From Enterococcaceae bacterium OF42-14pH9A (GTDB lineage: Bacteria; Bacillota; Bacilli; Lactobacillales; Enterococcaceae), in assembly GCA_027692465.1 (NCBI GenBank), contig JAQEYU010000001.1, positions 558,001-622,000 of the forward strand: a DNA stretch of 64,000 nt, read 5' to 3'. The notes beneath the pieces were generated by a model. It saw only the letters and a program-made list of their open reading frames with translations, did not search any database and was not told the origin of the DNA. Each line of letters starts with the position of its first letter. Position 1 is the stretch's first letter. A program made the position numbers and the translations under genes. Shown here in pieces: positions 13,461-37,253 of the stretch.

Positions 13461-13497
13461 CGGCAACATAAATGGTTCAGCTGTAAAAATAATTATC

Positions 13498-13561
13498 GCT
13501 TATATATCGTCGTAATCGGTCGACAGTCTCTACCCGATACCGTAAATATCGGACTATAAGC
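13498..13561 (+). promoter_or_regulatory. Guanine (purine) riboswitch aptamer
   Basis: P1 forms between GCTTATA (13498-13504) and TATAAGC (13555-13561). Between them are the P2 arm with the CGTAATCGG-type loop, the joining segment GTCTCTACC, and the P3 arm with the ACCGTAAAT-type loop, all hallmarks of the class. The residue in GGACTAT that pairs with ligand is C, which specifies guanine (or hypoxanthine) rather than adenine. Gene context (xpt, pbuX) agrees. Confidence 0.95.
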
Positions 13562-13570
13562 AAAAAATGT

Positions 13571-13621
13571 GCGCAGACACTTTTTTTGCTTATGCAGGGG
13601 AAGAGTCTGCGCTTTTGTTTC
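13571..13621 (+). terminator. Riboswitch-controlled terminator before xpt
   Basis: GCGCAGAC (13571-13578) pairs with GTCTGCGC (13605-13612), then TTTTGTTT. An alternative stem, ATAAGCAAAAAA with TTTTTTTGCTTAT, reuses the 3' strand of P1 and would break this terminator, so bound guanine should favour termination (an OFF switch). Confidence 0.88.
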
Positions 13622-13711: not shown

Positions 13712-14293
13712 ATGAAAGAATTGATCGAACGCATCAAGGCTGACGGCCGTGTCCTGGGTGAAGGAGTCTTGAAGGTCGACAGCTTTGTGACCCACCAGGT
13801 AGATCCGATATTGATGGAGCAGCTGGGCAGACGCTTTGCCGAATGTTTCGCCGACAGCAAAATCACAAAAGTAGTGACTATCGAAGCATCAGGAATTGCG
13901 CCGGCTCTGTATGCTGCTCAATTTTTGGGAGTGCCGATGGTTTTTGCCCGCAAATCCAAGAGCTTGACGATGGATGAAGAGCTCCTGACTTCTGAAGTTT
14001 ATTCCTTTACAAAACAGGTAACCAGCACGATTTCTATCTCGCGAAAGTTTTTGTCGGCAGACGATAATGTGCTGATTATCGATGATTTCCTGGCAAACGG
14101 TCAAGCTGCAAAAGGACTAATCGAATTGTGTCGACAGGCAGGTGCCCATGTTGAAGGAATTGGAATCGTAATCGAAAAATCCTTCCAAGACGGTCGCCAG
14201 CTGCTGGAAGATATGGGGCTGAAGGTAGTTTCGCTGGCGCGGATCGAGTCTCTTTCAAACGGGCAAGTCAGCTTTTTGAAGGAGGATGCCTGA
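13712..14293 (+). CDS. xpt: Xanthine phosphoribosyltransferase
   Basis: A 193-residue type I phosphoribosyltransferase that converts xanthine and PRPP to XMP for salvage. The N-terminal [29 protein letters not shown] start, [11 protein letters not shown] loop and PRPP motif [13 protein letters not shown] (about residues 120-132) are all as in Bacillus Xpt, and length is normal. AAGGGGAG precedes the ATG. It follows a guanine riboswitch and is joined directly to pbuX (the GTG of pbuX follows its TGA without a gap), the classic salvage pair. Confidence 0.96.
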
Positions 14294-15610
14294 GTGGAAA
14301 AGCAAACACAGACAGGAAAAGCAGCCGTTTTGGGGCTGCAACATTTATTGGCGATGTATGCCGGTGCGGTAGCTGTTCCGCTTTTGATTGGTACCGGGCT
14401 GGGCTTTAATGAACAACAGATGACCTATCTGATTTCTATTGATATTTTTATGTGTGGCGTGGCGACCCTGCTGCAGCTGACTGTCAACCGGTTCTTCGGG
14501 ATCGGACTGCCGGTGGTGTTGGGATGTGCGATCCAAGCAGTGGCACCGTTGATTTTGATCGGTACCAAGTCCGGAGTCGGTGCAATCTACGGTTCGATCA
14601 TTGCAGCGGGGATTTTTGTGGTATTAATCGCCGGTGTATTTTCGAAAATCAAAAAATTATTCCCGCCTTTAGTTACAGGGACAGTCATCACGGTCATCGG
14701 CTTGACGCTGATTCCGGTTGCAATCACTAAAATGGGTGGTGGCGATGCGACCGCCGGAAGCTTCGGCGATACAGACAATCTGATCCTGGCTTTTGTCACC
14801 ATTGCATTGATCATCGGGATCCAGATTTTTGCTAAAGGATTTATCCGCTCCATCTCTGTTTTAATCGGACTGGTAGGCGGCACGCTCTTGGCCTATTTTA
14901 TGGGAATGGTAGACTTCAGCGCAATCGGACATGCGCCGATCTTTCACGTACCGCAGCCGTTTTATTTTGGTAAGCCTACTTTTGACATCTGGTCGATCCT
15001 GTTGATGATCATCATCTCGATTGTCAGCATGGTGGAATCTACCGGAGTTTACTTCGCCTTGGGGGATATCACCGGTCAAGCCATCAATGAAGACGACTTG
15101 AAGCGCGGCTATCGTGCGGAAGGTTTGGCGGTGATCCTGGGAGGGATCTTCAATACCTTCCCGTATACCGGTTTTTCACAAAATGTCGGTCTGGTACAAC
15201 TTTCCGGAATCAAAACCAAAAAACCGATTTATTTTTCTGCGCTGTTCCTGATTGTATTGGGACTCTTTCCAAAAATTGGGGCGATTGCTCAGATCATTCC
15301 TGAACCCGTATTAGGCGGCGGGATGCTGGTGATGTTCGGTATGGTCGCAGTTCAGGGGATGCGGATGCTCTCAAAAGTTGATTTTGCCAACGATAAAAAT
15401 CTGCTGGTCATCGCAGTCTCCCTTGGTTTCGGCTTAGGGTTCAACATCATGCCCCAGTTGTTTGCCAAGCTTCCTGAAACCTTGCAGATGTTTACCGGTA
15501 ACGGGATTGTGATGAGCTCTCTGTGTGCTATCCTACTGAATCTGCTTTTTAATGGCATCAAGGAAGAAAAGACACCGTTGGCTGAAACGGTTGAAGAATA
15601 TTCCCGTTAA
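14294..15610 (+). CDS. pbuX: Xanthine permease, NCS2 family
   Basis: A 438-residue polytopic membrane protein (12 to 14 hydrophobic segments) of the nucleobase-cation symporter-2 family. The N-terminal GLQHLLAMYAGAVAVPLLIG, the central ESTGVYFALGDI motif and the following GGIFNTFPYTGFSQNVGL segment are family signatures. It should import xanthine to feed Xpt. Start is GTG immediately after the xpt stop, with GAAGGAGG about eight bases upstream. Expression should follow the upstream guanine riboswitch. A likely terminator lies about 125 bases downstream. Confidence 0.95.
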   Translation: MEKQTQTGKAAVLGLQHLLAMYAGAVAVPLLIGTGLGFNEQQMTYLISIDIFMCGVATLLQLTVNRFFGIGLPVVLGCAIQAVAPLILIGTKSGVGAIYGSIIAAGIFVVLIAGVFSKIKKLFPPLVTGTVITVIGLTLIPVAITKMGGGDATAGSFGDTDNLILAFVTIALIIGIQIFAKGFIRSISVLIGLVGGTLLAYFMGMVDFSAIGHAPIFHVPQPFYFGKPTFDIWSILLMIIISIVSMVESTGVYFALGDITGQAINEDDLKRGYRAEGLAVILGGIFNTFPYTGFSQNVGLVQLSGIKTKKPIYFSALFLIVLGLFPKIGAIAQIIPEPVLGGGMLVMFGMVAVQGMRMLSKVDFANDKNLLVIAVSLGFGLGFNIMPQLFAKLPETLQMFTGNGIVMSSLCAILLNLLFNGIKEEKTPLAETVEEYSR

Positions 15611-32522: not shown

Positions 32523-32590
32523 AAAATACCGGAACAACTGATTGTGCAAAGGTGTACTGGGCACGAGGCAGTTGTTCCGGTATTTTTTTA
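32523..32590. terminator. Bidirectional terminator between guaC and the Mga-like gene
   Basis: AAAATACCGGAACAACTG pairs with CAGTTGTTCCGGTATTTT around a long loop; A and T runs on both sides serve the convergent genes. Confidence 0.92.
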
Positions 32591-34120
32591 TAATGGCGCG
32601 GGAAAATCTGAAATGCTTGGATCTTCAAGCTGCCACAGGACTTTCTCTTGGCGCATTTGTTGGAGTTTTTGATGCAGGAGATCGAGGTCGTGATAATTCA
32701 AGAAAGGATCCATCAGCCAAAAAGGGTGGTGCATCAAAGTGGCTTCCGGAGAAAAAGTAGCGATAATCAAGTCGAAATCTCCCAGAAAAACATTCAATTT
32801 TTCATCTGTAAAATAAGCGGCGGGAATGGTCTCAAAGCTCAGGTTGCGGCCCATCAATTCCTGCAGTCGGACTGCCATGTGCCGGTCGTGACCGTCAGTC
32901 AAATCACTCATCACGAGAATTTTGAGAGGGAGTGTCCCGCAGATGATTTCCGGAATCTCCTTCATAAGATAAAACAGCAGATACTCTTTCAACTGGGGCG
33001 AAACCGCCAGTTTTTCTTTATTCAAAAATTTTTCCAGTTCACGGCGGATTTGGTTTGTTCCATGAGGATAAAAAGCGGCAGCGCGACTCAAAAAACTGTC
33101 GGTAGGATGACGAAAGATCCTGACCAGATCACTTTGCGGGCGAAAAGCCGTATTCTCCTGCAGAAAACCGTATGTGATTTTTTCCAGATGCGTGTCGGTG
33201 TAAGCGAGTTTTCGTTGAGATACTGTTTGAGAGAGGAAGCCGGTGATCTGTTTTTTCAAAACGGACAACTCTTGGTCAGTTTCTGTCACCTTTTGATAAT
33301 GTTCATGCGACAAAAGGCAGCAGTTGGAGTAGCATAACCACAGCAGGTCAGCACTTTGGGATGTCAGTTGCTGGAAAGCAGTCATCGAGGCTCTTTCCGG
33401 ATTCTTTTTCAAAAATAGCGCCGGATCGTCAAAGTACGGATGCTGCCAGGAACCGTTGAAGAGCTGCTGTCCGCAGTGATTCCGCTGCCAGCCGATTGCC
33501 ATAGAAAGCAGTAGTTTGCTATGGCGGTAGTGATTTTCCGGAATCTTATGGTGGTGTAAAAAGTCTGTCAAAAGACTGTCCATTTCAGAAAGCACCTGAG
33601 GAGAAACGAAGCAGTGCTCAGTTTTCAGTCCGCCGGTTTCAGAAAAAAAGCGGGTATAAAAATGCCGAAGAAAGCATTCATTTCCGGCAAGACGCATCGG
33701 TTTGTTCATGAGGGTCACACCGTATTCAGAAAACATTTTCTGGATTTTCAGAAGGATGCGGTTGGCATGGGAGACACTGATGAACACGGCATCGGCACAA
33801 TCCGTTTGAGTCTGGCAGTCTTCTAAGAACAGATGCCTCAACAGTTTGACTTCGCTGGTTTTTGACAGATAAGTCAAACATAGACCATCATAGCCGATAG
33901 CATCCAACCGGGACATCAAGTAGTGACCGTTGCTTCGCGAGAAATTCAGACCCGGGCAGCATTCAGAAAGGCGGGAAAAATTTTTCTGCAGCAAGTTATT
34001 GGAAAGGCTGAAACGTTGCTGCAGCAATACTTCGTCAACGGCGAAATCATTTGTATAAAAATAGTCCAACAGCTTTAGGTCTCGTTGATGTTGTTTGGTT
34101 AAGATCTTACGAAAATCCAT
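32588..34120 (-). CDS. Mga-like HTH transcriptional regulator
   Basis: A 510-residue protein resembling Mga/AtxA-type regulators. The N-terminus (about 1-130) has two helix-turn-helix regions (FAVDEVLLQQRFSLSNNLLQKNFSRL and AVFISVSHANRILLKIQKMFSEYGV), a long helical middle resembling PRD-like domains, and a C-terminal part with LKILVMSDLTDGHDRHMAVRLQELM that looks like an EIIB-type fold. Such proteins are often phosphorylated by the PTS and control surface or metabolic genes. ATG 34120 is preferred because AGGAG lies ten bases upstream; an in-frame ATG at 34129 abuts that site. It is divergent from the M-box/mgtA unit. Targets are unknown. Confidence 0.75.
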   Translation of the reverse strand: MDFRKILTKQHQRDLKLLDYFYTNDFAVDEVLLQQRFSLSNNLLQKNFSRLSECCPGLNFSRSNGHYLMSRLDAIGYDGLCLTYLSKTSEVKLLRHLFLEDCQTQTDCADAVFISVSHANRILLKIQKMFSEYGVTLMNKPMRLAGNECFLRHFYTRFFSETGGLKTEHCFVSPQVLSEMDSLLTDFLHHHKIPENHYRHSKLLLSMAIGWQRNHCGQQLFNGSWQHPYFDDPALFLKKNPERASMTAFQQLTSQSADLLWLCYSNCCLLSHEHYQKVTETDQELSVLKKQITGFLSQTVSQRKLAYTDTHLEKITYGFLQENTAFRPQSDLVRIFRHPTDSFLSRAAAFYPHGTNQIRRELEKFLNKEKLAVSPQLKEYLLFYLMKEIPEIICGTLPLKILVMSDLTDGHDRHMAVRLQELMGRNLSFETIPAAYFTDEKLNVFLGDFDLIIATFSPEATLMHHPFWLMDPFLNYHDLDLLHQKLQQMRQEKVLWQLEDPSISDFPAPL

Positions 34121-34157
34121 GTTATTCATTCTCCTTTTGGAAATTTCTGAAAAGGGG

Positions 34158-34186
34158 TTGACGCTTTTGCAGAACGAGTCTATGAT
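34158..34186 (+). promoter_or_regulatory. Promoter of the M-box/mgtA transcript
   Basis: TTGACG (34158-34163), 17 bases, TATGAT (34181-34186), about 15 bases before the aptamer. Confidence 0.8.
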
Positions 34187-34205
34187 GAGTATGTAAATAA
34201 ATAAT

Positions 34206-34364
34206 TGTTAGGTGAGGCTCCTATAAGGACACAGGCTGCTGCCGCGAAAGGATCGAGAGACCCTTAGTTTGGTAGAACAGGGATGGTCGTGAAGGTCATC
34301 CATAATGCAGCTGATAACGCTTTTTGTTATCTACGCCCTATAGTGCTAAAGCTCTACGATGAAC
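34206..34364 (+). promoter_or_regulatory. M-box (ykoK) magnesium riboswitch
   Basis: The conserved blocks occur in order: TTAGGTGAGGCTCCTATA, the GCTGCTGCCGCGAAA internal loop, the AATGCAGCTGATAA arm, and the 3' block TAGTGCTAAAGCTCTACGATGA. This class binds Mg2+ and shuts down Mg2+ transporter genes when Mg2+ is plentiful. It stands upstream of an mgtA-type ATPase, as expected. Confidence 0.95.
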
Positions 34365-34379
34365 TGACGATCTCTTTTT

Positions 34380-34409
34380 CGCGCGCTCATTGTAGAGTGC
34401 GCGTTTTTT
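34380..34409 (+). terminator. M-box-controlled intrinsic terminator
   Basis: CGCGCGCTC (34380-34388) pairs with GAGTGCGCG (34395-34403), then TTTTTT. The competing antiterminator pairs the aptamer's 3' segment GCTCTACGATGA (34350-34361) with TCATTGTAGAGT (34387-34398), a clear switch geometry. Confidence 0.92.
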
Positions 34410-34539
34410 AATTTCTTTCATTTTGTAATTTTATCATAAACAAACGGATAATTGTTATTTATTTTCTGTTTTTGATGAATTACCAATGGAGATTAAAAAT
34501 AACCTAAGGAGTCGGTCAAAATCAGAAAGGATGATGAAC

Positions 34540-34587
34540 ATGGAAGCACCCAGTCCCGAACCGTTGCAATTGAATAACAACAGCTGA
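34540..34587 (+). CDS. Putative Mg2+-sensing leader peptide (MgtL-like)
   Basis: A 15-codon ORF reading MEAPSPEPLQLNNNS, with AAAGG nine bases before its ATG; two upstream in-frame ATGs (34531, 34534) are too close to that site. It lies between the M-box terminator and mgtA. The N-terminus is an acid/proline mix (E2, P4, P6, E7, P8), like Salmonella MgtL (starting MEPDPTPLP), whose E/D-P stretch destabilises ribosomes when Mg2+ is low and so raises mgtA transcription. Sequence, ribosome site and position are seen; the leader-peptide role is inferred. Fifteen codons can arise by chance, so confidence is limited. Confidence 0.5.
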   Translation: MEAPSPEPLQLNNNS

Positions 34588-34658
34588 GGAAGGGGTGCCT
34601 TCTTCGGCCGTCGTCGAGATGAATGAGTTCTCGGAGACAAAGAGAAGGAGGAAATGAC

Positions 34659-37253
34659 ATGTTGAATAAAAAAACATTATCCAAAGATACAGAACTGAAA
34701 AAAATGGCTTTACTGTCGGAGCGAGAGCTGTTAATGGAGCTGCGGACCTCGCTGAAGGGTTTGTCCGAAGAAGATGCGCAGGAGCGCTTGGAGGAATTCG
34801 GTCCGAATGAAGTAAATGCTCAAAAGCCGACACCAGCATGGCTGCTGTTTTTAGGTGCCTTCAAAGATCCCTTTGTTTTGGTTTTGGCACTTTTGATGGT
34901 CGTATCGGCCGCTACCGGAGATTTTGAAGCAGCTGTCGTGATGGGGATTATGATCTTGGCTAGTGTCGTGATCACCTTCGTGCAGGAATATCGCTCGCAA
35001 AAAGCGAGTCTGGCGTTGAAAGAATTGATCGAAAACACGACGGCTGTCACTCGCGGGGGAGTGACCCGCGAAATTCCAATGGATGAAGTGGTTCCCGGGG
35101 ATATTATTACACTGGCAACCGGCGATATGATACCGGCAGATGCTGTGCTCATCTGGACAAAAGATTTGTTTGTCAATCAGTCCTCTTTGAGTGGCGAATC
35201 GATGCCGGTGGAAAAATTTGTTCGCAGTCGTGTTTCTGCAGGGCTGAACTCCTCAGCAATCGAATTTCAGGATCTGGTTTTCATGGGAACCGATGTCCTG
35301 AGTGGTCAAGGGAAGGCCATTATCATAAAGACCGGTCAGGAAACGTTTTTTGGCGATATTGCCAAAAATGCGACGACCAAAAGAGGCAATACAGCTTTTG
35401 ATGTCGGCTTGAAAAAAGTCAGCCAGCTGCTTTTGCGGATGGTCGTCGTTTTATTCCCGGTTGTTTTTCTGATCAACGGTTTGACTAAAGGTGACTGGAG
35501 TGCTGCCTTTTTCTTTGCAATTGCTGTTGCTGTCGGATTGACACCGGAGATGCTGCCGATGATTGTTACCAGTAATCTGGCGAAAGGAGCGATGGCCCTT
35601 TCCAAGCAGAAAGTGATCGTCAAGGAGCTGCCGTCAATTCAAAATCTGGGTGCTATGGATGTGCTGTGTACAGATAAGACAGGGACGATAACCGAAGACC
35701 GGGTGGTGCTGGTGCAGCATCTGGATCCGCTGGGGAGTGAAAACCAGCAAGTGTTGGACATGGCTTACTTGAACTCTTTTTACCAGACCGGGTGGAAAAA
35801 CCTGATGGATATCGCTGTAATCAACTACTATGGCGAAAAGAAACGACAGCTGCCCTTTGAAGAGGTTGTGAAAATCGATGAGATCCCTTTTGATTTTTCC
35901 CGTCGGCGCTTAACGGTAGTGGTCAAAGCGGACGAACATCAGATTATGATTACTAAAGGGGCCGTTGAAGAAATGGAACGGGTCTGTCGCTATGTAGAGA
36001 TTAATGGCAAGATTACGGAACTGACCGATGAGCTGCGACAAGAAATGCGGCGGGTAAATCGTCGCATGAACGAGCAGGGAATGCGGGTAATCACAGTAGC
36101 AATCCGTCGTGACGCACATTCGGATGCGACGTATTCGGTAGAAGATGAGAATGAAATGATTCTGATCGGGTTTATGGGTTTTTTGGATCCTGCTAAAGAA
36201 TCCGCGGTAACGGCAATCAAATCGCTTCATGAACACGGCGTTTCCGTGAAAGTGCTGACCGGCGACAATCAGATCGTTGCTAAAAAGGTCTGTCAGGATG
36301 TAGGAATCAAAGTTACAACGATCTTGTTGGGAACCGATATCGAAAAGATGACAGACGAGGAACTAACCGCAACTATCGATGAAACCAATCTTTATGCTAA
36401 ACTTGATCCGTTGCAGAAATCGCGGATCATCGATATTCTGCAACGTAAAGGTCACACTGTCGGCTTTATGGGTGACGGAATCAATGATGCGCCAGCTCTG
36501 AGAAAAGCTGATGTCGGAATCTCCGTGGACACTGCGGCGGATATCACAAAGGATGCCAGTTCGATTATTCTGTTGGAGAAATCACTGAATGTTTTGGAGT
36601 CAGGTGTCTTGGAAGGACGCAAAGTCTTCAGCAATATGATGAAATATATTAAATTTACAATCTCGTCGAATTTCGGAAATGTGTTTTCGATTCTGGTTGC
36701 CAGTGCTTTTCTTCCGTTTCTGCCGATGGTTTCGATTCAACTGCTGGTACAGAATCTGATCTACGACATGGCGCAGCTGACGATTCCTTGGGACAATGTC
36801 GATGAAGAAGAACTGGCACGGCCGGTTCGCTGGGAAATCCGTGACTTGTTCAAGTTTACTGTTGCCATCGGTCCAGTCAGTTCGATTTTCGATATTCTCA
36901 CTTTCCTGGTGATGTGGTTTGTCTTTCATGCAGATACGGTTGCTTCGCAGCAGTTGTTTCAGACGGGATGGTTTGTTGTCGGTTTGACGACGCAAACATT
37001 GGTTGTCCATATGGTTCGTACCCGCAAAGTTCCGTTTTTTCAGAGCATTGCTTCTCCGCCGGTTCTCTTGGCCAGTATCGGAGCGATTGCTGTCGGTTTG
37101 GCAATTGTGCTATCTCCTATCAGAGAGGTCTTTGAATTTGTGCAGCTGCCGCACAACTACTGGTTCTGGTTTGTCGGCATCGTGGTATGTTATCTGATTA
37201 CGATCGAAATAGCTAAACGTATTTATATTCGGGTCACAAAATCCTGGGTTTGA
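34659..37253 (+). CDS. mgtA: Magnesium-importing P-type ATPase
   Basis: An 864-residue P3B-type ATPase of the MgtA/MgtB group, importing Mg2+ across the membrane. Features in order: cytoplasmic N-terminus, first membrane pair (about 70-120), actuator TGES-type loop SSLSGESMPVEK, phosphorylation motif with D339 in CTDKTGTITED, nucleotide-binding region (KGAVEEMERVCRY), hinge GFMGDGINDAPALRKADVGISVD and C-terminal helices. ATG 34659 follows AAGGAGG; an ATG at 34623 would place the start inside the leader. Control is by M-box, and possibly also by the leader ORF. The next operon is pdhABCD, an order also known in Enterococcus faecalis. Confidence 0.95.
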   Translation: MLNKKTLSKDTELKKMALLSERELLMELRTSLKGLSEEDAQERLEEFGPNEVNAQKPTPAWLLFLGAFKDPFVLVLALLMVVSAATGDFEAAVVMGIMILASVVITFVQEYRSQKASLALKELIENTTAVTRGGVTREIPMDEVVPGDIITLATGDMIPADAVLIWTKDLFVNQSSLSGESMPVEKFVRSRVSAGLNSSAIEFQDLVFMGTDVLSGQGKAIIIKTGQETFFGDIAKNATTKRGNTAFDVGLKKVSQLLLRMVVVLFPVVFLINGLTKGDWSAAFFFAIAVAVGLTPEMLPMIVTSNLAKGAMALSKQKVIVKELPSIQNLGAMDVLCTDKTGTITEDRVVLVQHLDPLGSENQQVLDMAYLNSFYQTGWKNLMDIAVINYYGEKKRQLPFEEVVKIDEIPFDFSRRRLTVVVKADEHQIMITKGAVEEMERVCRYVEINGKITELTDELRQEMRRVNRRMNEQGMRVITVAIRRDAHSDATYSVEDENEMILIGFMGFLDPAKESAVTAIKSLHEHGVSVKVLTGDNQIVAKKVCQDVGIKVTTILLGTDIEKMTDEELTATIDETNLYAKLDPLQKSRIIDILQRKGHTVGFMGDGINDAPALRKADVGISVDTAADITKDASSIILLEKSLNVLESGVLEGRKVFSNMMKYIKFTISSNFGNVFSILVASAFLPFLPMVSIQLLVQNLIYDMAQLTIPWDNVDEEELARPVRWEIRDLFKFTVAIGPVSSIFDILTFLVMWFVFHADTVASQQLFQTGWFVVGLTTQTLVVHMVRTRKVPFFQSIASPPVLLASIGAIAVGLAIVLSPIREVFEFVQLPHNYWFWFVGIVVCYLITIEIAKRIYIRVTKSWV

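Follow-up and report, generated by a model that had tools for sequence, protein, structure and literature searches.

A probable MgtQ-like leader peptide in series with an M-box riboswitch before mgtA in Enterococcaceae

Known magnesium leaders and the layout of the mgtA locus

Sensing of Mg2+ through destabilization of the ribosome has been worked out in enteric bacteria with the leader peptides MgtL and MgtQ, and the M-box riboswitch is known to decide by intrinsic termination whether a transcript is completed. The M-box of Bacillus subtilis mgtE (ykoK; RF00380) joins an aptamer to an intrinsic-terminator switch, and we know of no leader ORF described behind it. The accessible part of PMC4072509 presents the M-box as a second riboswitch, mechanistically distinct from the enteric mgtA leader. 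For Salmonella mgtQ, which precedes mgtB, the excerpted text describes release of the Shine-Dalgarno (SD) sequence at the level of translation. The gene of the Mg2+ P-type ATPase is preceded there by a tiny SD-led ORF that contains acidic residues and a CCC codon for proline; stem 2:3 is opposed by stems 1:2 and 3:4, the latter containing the ribosome-binding site of the transporter; the proline codon lies in stem region 1 and worked through RNA pairing, not as a codon; and loss of the start codon lowers expression (PMC8092293). Salmonella and E. coli mgtL has an acid/proline N-terminus (EPDP) before mgtA, for which excerpts describe Mg2+-dependent ribosome drop-off and a Rho-dependent terminator (PMC11282234, PMC11552253). 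In Mycobacterium tuberculosis, a conserved, translated small ORF, Rv1805A, follows an Mbox, and it shows a conserved N-terminus and proline; in the excerpted text, that Mbox governs uORF translation along with Rho termination, pe/ppe genes lie downstream, and the peptide is said to have an unclear role (PMC12810186). A word search of the full text of that paper found neither destabili- nor MgtL, and stall- only as a surname.

The window analyzed here comprises 64,000 nt of Enterococcaceae bacterium OF42-14pH9A, a relative of Enterococcus, and all coordinates refer to it (Table 1). The original prediction had placed a complete M-box with antiterminator and terminator before mgtA, and a 15-codon ORF with an AAAGG between terminator and gene; every one of these parts was found. 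The RF00380 covariance model is matched over its whole length (1-169) against a gathering score of 44, and the match begins a few bases before the predicted start at 34206. By folding, the antiterminator competes both with the 3' portion of the M-box and with the terminator, and with the latter it makes up the mutually exclusive pair of the expression platform of this class: the minimum free energy (MFE) structure of 34340-34412 (-24.1 kcal/mol) contains the antiterminator, and the terminator alone reaches -16.8. The aptamer had also been assigned control of initiation; the M-box acts on transcription termination instead. Two further in-frame ATGs lie close upstream of the leader start, at 34531 and 34534. 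Start 34540 is favored because its distance of 9 nt from the SD five-mer is shared by 42 of the 75 leaders, most of the rest having 8-13 nt.

Table 1 Features of the mgtA leader region, in window coordinates
Feature	Position	Strand	Details
Sigma-70-like promoter, suggestive (TTGACG, 17 nt, TATGAT)	34158..34186	+	Consensus 10/12; just 5' of the M-box
M-box (ykoK-type) Mg2+ riboswitch aptamer	34197..34371	+	Rfam RF00380, 122.6 bits, E 5.7e-27
Antiterminator helix (folding)	34351..34398	+	34351-34362 with 34387-34398
Intrinsic terminator, M-box platform	34380..34409	+	9-bp stem 34380-34403, then TTTTTT
Leader-ORF SD, AAAGG	34526..34530	+	9 nt 5' of leader ATG
Leader ORF, 15 codons, MEAPSPEPLQLNNNS	34540..34587	+	ATG 34540, TGA 34585-34587; acid/proline N-terminus
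Predicted switch element 1	34546..34556	+	Inside leader ORF; holds first CCC Pro codon; pairs with element 2
Predicted switch element 2	34583..34598	+	Spans leader stop codon; pairs with element 1, or 34583-34593 with 34598-34608
Predicted switch element 3 (anti-SD), CCTTCTTCGGC	34598..34608	+	Pairs with element 2, or 34599-34605 with mgtA SD
Predicted switch element 4 (mgtA SD region), GAAGGAGG	34644..34651	+	From folding
mgtA, Mg2+-translocating P-type ATPase	34659..37253	+	NCBIfam TIGR01524, 1202.5 bits

A short, SD-led acidic ORF directly before the gene of a Mg2+ P-type ATPase is the layout of mgtQ, and acid/proline N-terminal codons before mgtA are those of mgtL. The likeness to mgtQ is one of design only, since peptides of this size allow no homology test. 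mgtQ sits within the mgtCBRU operon under the control of PhoP, with no M-box mentioned in the available text (PMC8092293), whereas the ORF of the window follows an M-box in the 5' leader of a Gram-positive gene, and the two are conserved together. This conserved ORF would also separate the window from the M-box of B. subtilis mgtE.

Conservation of the leader and selection on its codons

The leader is kept almost without exception among related loci, as the original prediction required. By an automatic rule, 71 of 76 Enterococcaceae mgtA orthologues (loci that are related to one another) are preceded by an SD-led short ORF (sORF) starting ATG with D or E at codon 2, a count that allows ORFs overlapping mgtA; with these excluded it is 49 of 76. 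Admitting four variants by eye raises the number to 75, and the one orthologue left over also has no M-box. The acid/proline character of the N-terminus, which had been named as key evidence, is likewise conserved within the family: 68 of 76 add a proline in residues 3-9. An ORF of only 15 codons might arise by chance between a working M-box and mgtA, but in 100 dinucleotide shuffles the rule was satisfied on average 1.13 times and at most 5 (0.31 and 2 with the proline), and we reject this explanation as next to impossible. The leader ORF is not a chance ORF, and the same pair of M-box and leader recurs in many relatives. In the gene table of Enterococcus gallinarum, which may be incomplete, the leader ORF carries no annotation.

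Beyond the family the acidic start persists and the proline mostly does not. Elsewhere in the order, 26 of 42 M-box mgtA loci have the SD-led M[D/E] sORF (shuffles, mean 0.7), and only 3 of the 42 also have an early proline. Among 15 scored M-boxes before other genes at this level, a single one is followed by such an sORF; therefore, the leader goes with the Mg2+ pump.

Selection on the ORF is visible at the level of codons. D or E occupies codon 2 in 74 of 75 leaders. Residues 2-8 are 29% D/E and 18% P, against 8% and 3% from residue 9 onward (the latter in the 53 leaders that stop before mgtA). Between the window and its nearest relative (L010), codons 8, 9, 11 and 12 of the first 12 differ, all synonymously, and the 100 nt 5' of the leader SD align at only 55 of 113 positions. 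Among 15 relatives with an MDHEDSRP-like leader, the codon pairs that differ in the frame of the leader comprise 159 synonymous and 189 non-synonymous ones, against 34:337 and 41:327 in the other two frames. An alternative reading of the leaders of L060-L077 as MKIVDPK was rejected, as it is the MDHEDSRP frame that shows the excess of synonymous differences.

That the stretch is kept as RNA structure alone, with the ORF incidental, would fit the overlap of the predicted pairing with the ORF and the excessive conservation of some nucleotides (CCC, AGT). The confinement of excess synonymous change to the leader frame, the GAA/GAT exchange at codon 2, the retained leader SD and the failure of dinucleotide-preserving shuffles to yield the ORFs argue against it, and we regard it as very improbable. 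That the amino acids close to the N-terminus are under selection would also suit a small functional protein, for example a regulator of the activity or stability of MgtA. Yet acid and proline content drops after about residue 8, lengths range from 12 to 30 codons with tails that differ among relatives, the switch predicted below requires only the position of a ribosome, and in 22 relatives the leader runs out of frame across the mgtA start, its tail being read from mgtA sequence in another frame. A protein product is improbable on these grounds. The 22 overlapping leaders appear to be an alternative architecture with the same logic, one that sets these relatives apart from mgtQ in the available part of its description.

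Predicted switching of the mgtA Shine-Dalgarno sequence

The two-step control we propose, which we hold to be likely, places the M-box in series with an MgtQ-like, ribosome-abort leader that senses Mg2+ before mgtA. The M-box would decide, via intrinsic termination, whether the transcript is completed, and on completed transcripts the 15-codon ORF would serve as the leader peptide. With no ribosome, or with a ribosome at the leader stop, element 3 would pair with the mgtA SD and mgtA would be off. A ribosome held on, or repeatedly lost at, the acid/proline codons 2-8 would cover element 1, so that elements 2 and 3 form an 11-bp hairpin, the SD is freed and mgtA is on. Low Mg2+ would favor the SD-free state because acidic and proline-containing N-termini destabilize ribosomes when Mg2+ is scarce; thus, the leader probably opens mgtA when ribosomes falter at low Mg2+. 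Loss of the leader start codon is predicted to lower expression, as it does for mgtQ.

Two Mg2+ devices in series had been suggested from the outset, and the M-box and the conserved acid/proline ORF support this. MgtQ is a closer model than MgtL, as the leader lies across alternative, incompatible predicted folds in which the mgtA SD is either buried or accessible. A device of the Rho type, as in mgtL, was ranked lower, the predicted target here being the mgtA SD.

Folding of the window gave exclusive pairings and an SD freed by an early ribosome. The predicted fraction of unpaired mgtA SD is 0.09 without a ribosome, 0.72-0.93 while the P-site lies within codons 1-10 (0.93 with the ribosome on the acid/proline codons), 0.00-0.01 on codons 12-15 and 0.15 at the stop (11 nt past the stop covered). 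The early-minus-stop difference was reached by none of 500 shuffles. Two points speak against the switch: in the window, one codon further forward the value is 0.47, and after ribosome drop-off the RNA could refold to the SD-hidden state.

Across the family, the mean supports a predicted SD switch, with exceptions and with dependence on the footprint. The SD is more exposed than in shuffles in the early state (0.607 vs 0.387, n=51) and less exposed in the stop state (0.284 vs 0.554, n=34); without a ribosome it is not clearly more hidden (0.345 vs 0.412, p 0.08). Early exceeds stop in 30 of 34 loci, by more than 0.1 in 24; eight differ by 0.1 or less, and two (L028 and L051) run the opposite way. 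No state exposes the SD in L055 and L067. Grouped by single linkage on string similarity, which merges broadly (13 clusters, two of them with 19 and 20 members), early exceeds stop in seven of the eight clusters with a usable stop state under the footprint adopted here (Wilcoxon p 0.11). With different footprints the counts were 8, 7, 6 and 5 of 8 (p 0.008, 0.20, 0.38 and 0.46), the last two being those that cover 14 nt after the stop. At 40 loci of the order the early state is again more exposed (0.579 vs 0.416), early exceeds stop in only 25 of 39, and the Listeria-like L138-L140 show no difference between the two states.

The signal read by the leader

A conserved, translated leader could work the same RNA switch in answer to an input other than Mg2+, such as charged tRNA-Pro or tRNA-Ser, EF-P or ABC-F status, ATP, polyamines or general ribosome stress. 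The strong codon choice speaks for this: AGT encodes 71 of 98 serines in leader residues 2-9 but 19 of 318 in the opening 60 codons of mgtA, and for proline the share of CCC is 73 of 102 compared with 18 of 119. The incomplete set of tRNA genes found in one relative (G001) holds tgg and cgg for proline and no ggg, and in E. coli MgtL is reported to be a target of EttA, a protein of the ABC-F group. However, acidic residues are spread more widely than proline outside the family, and the leader is tied to the Mg2+ pump. An input of this kind is rather unlikely, and Mg2+ is our preferred signal.

More broadly, and with the chances close to balanced, the ribosome may be a permanent second sensor of Mg2+, coupled in series to the M-box, in Bacilli and above all in the order of Enterococcus. 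Acidic leaders rich in Ser (AGU), which in the family also carry proline, would stall or drop the ribosome at low Mg2+, and the stalled or lost ribosome would free the SD of the pump gene. Either of two architectures would serve, a stop-proximal anti-SD hairpin switch and a reading frame overlapping the mgtA start, and weakly read codons (AGU, CCC) would be preferred, tuning the abort. When Mg2+ rises again, such a gate would at once stop the translation of mRNA already made, a step closed to the co-transcriptional M-box.

An M-box in series with an MgtQ-like sensor would be a new combination of known kinds of device. If true, ribosome-based Mg2+ sensing would be a general strategy that is either ancient or arose repeatedly; one gene would be under an AND gate of two Mg2+ sensors with independent mechanisms; and leader ORFs such as the one left unannotated in the E. 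gallinarum gene table would gain a function. The need for a second check downstream of a working riboswitch becomes a testable question.

The TTGACG/TATGAT site may drive the leader transcript, and is suggestive only because the region holds two such sites against 1.3 expected in shuffles. The second promoter-like match lies within the leader, at 34423-34452.

M-box and leader ORF upstream of mgtA

The M-box and the 15-codon acid/proline ORF that separates it from mgtA (the leader) are each a known kind of device; the novelty, as far as could be seen, lies in their conserved pairing in series in Bacilli. By title, opening abstract lines or the parts available, no open-access paper listed in the searches, a coverage that leaves out most subscription papers and preprints, reports an M-box with an acid/proline leader ORF after it. 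The closest published match found is an M-box of M. tuberculosis, behind which lies a conserved uORF whose role is unclear (PMC12810186, in the part available).

Features of the mgtA upstream stretch and other elements of the window (SD, Shine-Dalgarno)
Feature	Position	Strand	Remark
Promoter-like pair	34158-34186	+	first feature of mgtA upstream stretch
M-box	34197-34371	+	RF00380, 122.6 bits
Antiterminator	34351-34362 / 34387-34398	+	competes with terminator
Terminator of M-box	34380-34409	+	
Second promoter-like match	34423-34452		between terminator and leader ORF
Leader SD	34526-34530	+	AAAGG
Leader ORF	34540-34587	+	MEAPSPEPLQLNNNS
Element 1	34546-34556		
Element 2	34583-34598		
Element 3	34598-34608		
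Element 4	34644-34651		mgtA SD region
mgtA	from 34659	+	TIGR01524
Divergent regulator gene	32588-34129		AcpB/EbpR/MafR family, NF053736
Purine riboswitch	13480-13576		RF00167, 60.9 bits
ORFs behind purine riboswitch	13712-14293, 14294-15610		presumably xpt and pbuX, respectively

The MgtA of the window is 93% identical to that of Enterococcus sp. CU9D, and Enterococcus genomes are the closest relatives found, which places the window in Enterococcus or a close relative. Promoter-like matches occur near shuffle expectation (2 in the region vs 1.3 expected); the second, if used, would yield a transcript without the M-box. Roughly 30 nt separate the start of the divergent regulator gene from the promoter-like pair of mgtA.

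Conservation and composition of the leader

The family and order sets were those of CU9D (Enterococcaceae, Lactobacillales), and MgtA was matched in 94 of the 105 genomes of its family at the cut-off used. The family set held 76 loci, the window and the upstream regions of 75 orthologues (at least 65% identity; one broken partial match was excluded), and a distant mgtA class was represented by 16 picked loci (45-49% identity). A leader was scored as an ATG with an SD, at least 8 codons, Asp or Glu at codon 2 and a distance to mgtA of at most 260 nt, with out-of-frame overlap of the mgtA start allowed. This rule found a leader in 71 of the 76 loci, which come from related species and are not independent, vs on average 1.13 and at most 5 in 100 dinucleotide-preserving shuffles. 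It failed at L024 and L062, where the leader starts with TTG, at L040, where it reads MVDPSQ, at L079, whose leader SD is absent from the SD list used, and at L085, where neither leader nor M-box was found (motif search; Rfam, none at E up to 1). The other 75 loci all carry the M-box motif. Leaders were present in 12 of the 16 distant loci. Many leaders of that class combine an MDDSS-like start with a common C-terminal stretch, for example YYCLFVS, LLSICF or IYLFSAPL (leaders with the stretch: L020, L021, L087, L089-L092, L098, L111, L118, L119, L121, L126, L127, L132, L134-L136). Of 88 family leaders, 11 lack a five-T run 150-270 nt past the start of the M-box motif, so in these the platform of the M-box may be something other than a simple terminator.

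A comparison of the window with its nearest relative shows leader flanks that have turned over and leader codons 1-12 that kept their amino acids: the 100 nt 5' of the leader SD align at 55/113, the four codon differences in codons 1-12 are all synonymous, and non-synonymous differences lie in codons 13-15. Residue 2 is Glu in 39 leaders and Asp in 35 (together 74/75), and residue 4 is Pro in 55/75. Residues 2-8 are 29% Asp/Glu and 18% Pro, vs 8% and 3% from residue 9 onward (53 leaders ending before mgtA, 12 to 30 codons long). The other 22 leaders read through the mgtA start in the +2 frame, with their stops 35-89 nt inside the gene; in 15 of these, the leader frame has 159 synonymous to 189 non-synonymous differences, vs 34:337 and 41:327 in the other frames of the same region.

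Codon choice is also skewed. Ser is AGT in 71/98 cases at leader residues 2-9 vs 19/318 in the first 60 mgtA codons, and Pro is CCC in 73/102 leader codons vs 18/119 in mgtA. Either slow reading or RNA pairing might account for this skew. Among 39 tRNA matches in the draft genome of one relative (G001), an incomplete set with no Val or His tRNA seen, Pro tgg and cgg are present and ggg is not.

Predicted RNA switch and proposed mechanism

Folding of the window predicts two exclusive pairings: 1:2 with 3:4, which hides the mgtA SD, and 2:3, an 11-bp hairpin that begins two bases 5' of the leader stop codon and frees the SD. For each codon position of a ribosome the uncovered RNA was folded, with the 3' edge of the ribosome set 16 nt from the first base of the P-site. 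The predicted probability of an unpaired SD is 0.09 on ribosome-free RNA, rises to 0.72-0.93 when codons 1-10 are in the P-site, and falls to 0.51 for codon 11 and 0.00-0.01 for codons 12-15; one codon further on it is 0.47, and covering 11 nt past the stop gives 0.15. The difference between a ribosome on the acid/proline codons (early state) and one at the stop (stop state) is 0.78, equalled by 0/500 shuffles. For the window, then, the switch is strongly predicted.

According to the part of PMC8092293 available, Salmonella mgtQ is an 8-codon ORF encoding Asp2 and Glu5 whose CCC codon falls in stem region 1; pairings 1:2 and 3:4 compete with 2:3, the mgtB ribosome-binding site lies in 3:4, start-codon loss and acid-to-Ala changes reduce mgtB translation, and L31 opposes the mgtQ effect. 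By that partial account the window leader has the same design. E. coli MgtL, at which ribosomes are dropped at EPDP under low Mg2+, acts via Rho (PMC11282234, in the part available). We therefore propose that an MgtQ-like step may follow the M-box in the mgtA leader. In the overlapping-frame relatives, a ribosome completing the leader would run over the mgtA start and an aborting one would not, which fits the same on/off logic as the hairpin switch. Because both architectures exist, in our view the best argument, we infer that leader completion means mgtA off.

Folding of 51 family loci (those 53 whose leader ends before mgtA, excluding L040 and L062 with their far-upstream leaders) supports the switch prediction for the family mean. 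With kinship ignored, openness of the SD exceeds that of shuffles in the early state (0.607 vs 0.387, Wilcoxon p 6e-6, n=51) and falls below it in the stop state (0.284 vs 0.554, p 4e-6, n=34), and the no-ribosome state is not clearly different (0.345 vs 0.412, p 0.08, 51 loci). Early exceeds stop in 30/34 loci, by more than 0.1 in 24; eight lie within 0.1 either way, and L028 and L051 show the reverse order by more than 0.1. By cluster the count is 7/8 (p 0.11; shuffled representatives, 1 to 5 of 7). With other footprints, early exceeds stop in 32/34, 26/34, 19/32 and 18/32 loci (8, 7, 6 and 5 of 8 clusters), the two lowest assuming 14 nt covered past the stop.

Beyond the family the prediction is weaker. 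Some loci have no predicted switch: at the family loci L055 and L067 the SD is hidden in every folded state. Among the order-level matches listed, 40 loci with such a leader out of 48 examined (six of the 48 in family genomes) gave 0.579 vs 0.416 shuffled for the early state (p 8e-5) and 0.456 vs 0.578 for the stop state (p 0.007, n=39), with early above stop in 25/39.

Reach across order and class

The M-box is present in 174/246 genomes drawn from the order. We examined 69 of these M-box loci, the 29 best-scoring and 40 chosen, among the matches listed, in genomes outside the family set; five were left out, four without an M-box by simple motif search and one without a long ORF. In 48 of the 64 loci kept, an MgtA-like gene follows, and 42 of these 48 come from genomes not in the family set. 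Among these 42, likewise from the matches listed, an SD-led ATG short ORF with Asp/Glu at codon 2 occurs in 26 (shuffles, mean 0.69, maximum 3), and only 3 also have Pro in residues 3-9 (0.14, maximum 2). Inspection by eye of the other 16 found in 13 an acidic ORF of some sort, with another start or outside the rule, such as MAHHQEDEVEEPDSYY at L138, a near copy of which, MDHHQGEEVEEPDSYY, precedes L. monocytogenes mgtA (L172); L161, L164 and L168 showed no acidic ORF by eye.

Before non-mgtA genes, under a slightly looser rule and without shuffles, such an ORF was found in 1 of 15 order-level M-box loci scored among the matches listed (L153), which cover few gene kinds; six further loci went unscored. 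Pfam gave PAP2, FtsW/RodA and MgtC for those of these genes submitted to it, and the others were assigned by likeness. Some Enterococcaceae genomes carry up to six M-boxes (L101-L123, L153, L156), including before PAP2-, FtsW/RodA- and MgtC-type genes.

Among 20 M-box loci of a class-level draw, an acidic leader precedes an MgtA-like gene in four (L181, L182, L191, L192; the genomes of the last two belong also to the order draw) and a permease-like gene in L173 and L186. Twelve others have no acidic leader with ATG, one of which (L184) has a GTG-started ORF with Asp at codon 2. In L176 and L179 the M-box is followed by an SD-led ORF, MDSPSSSR or MDSPASSR, that overlaps out of frame the start of an Nramp-type gene (by Pfam for L176, by similarity to L176 for L179), a putative leader of similar kind before another transporter class.
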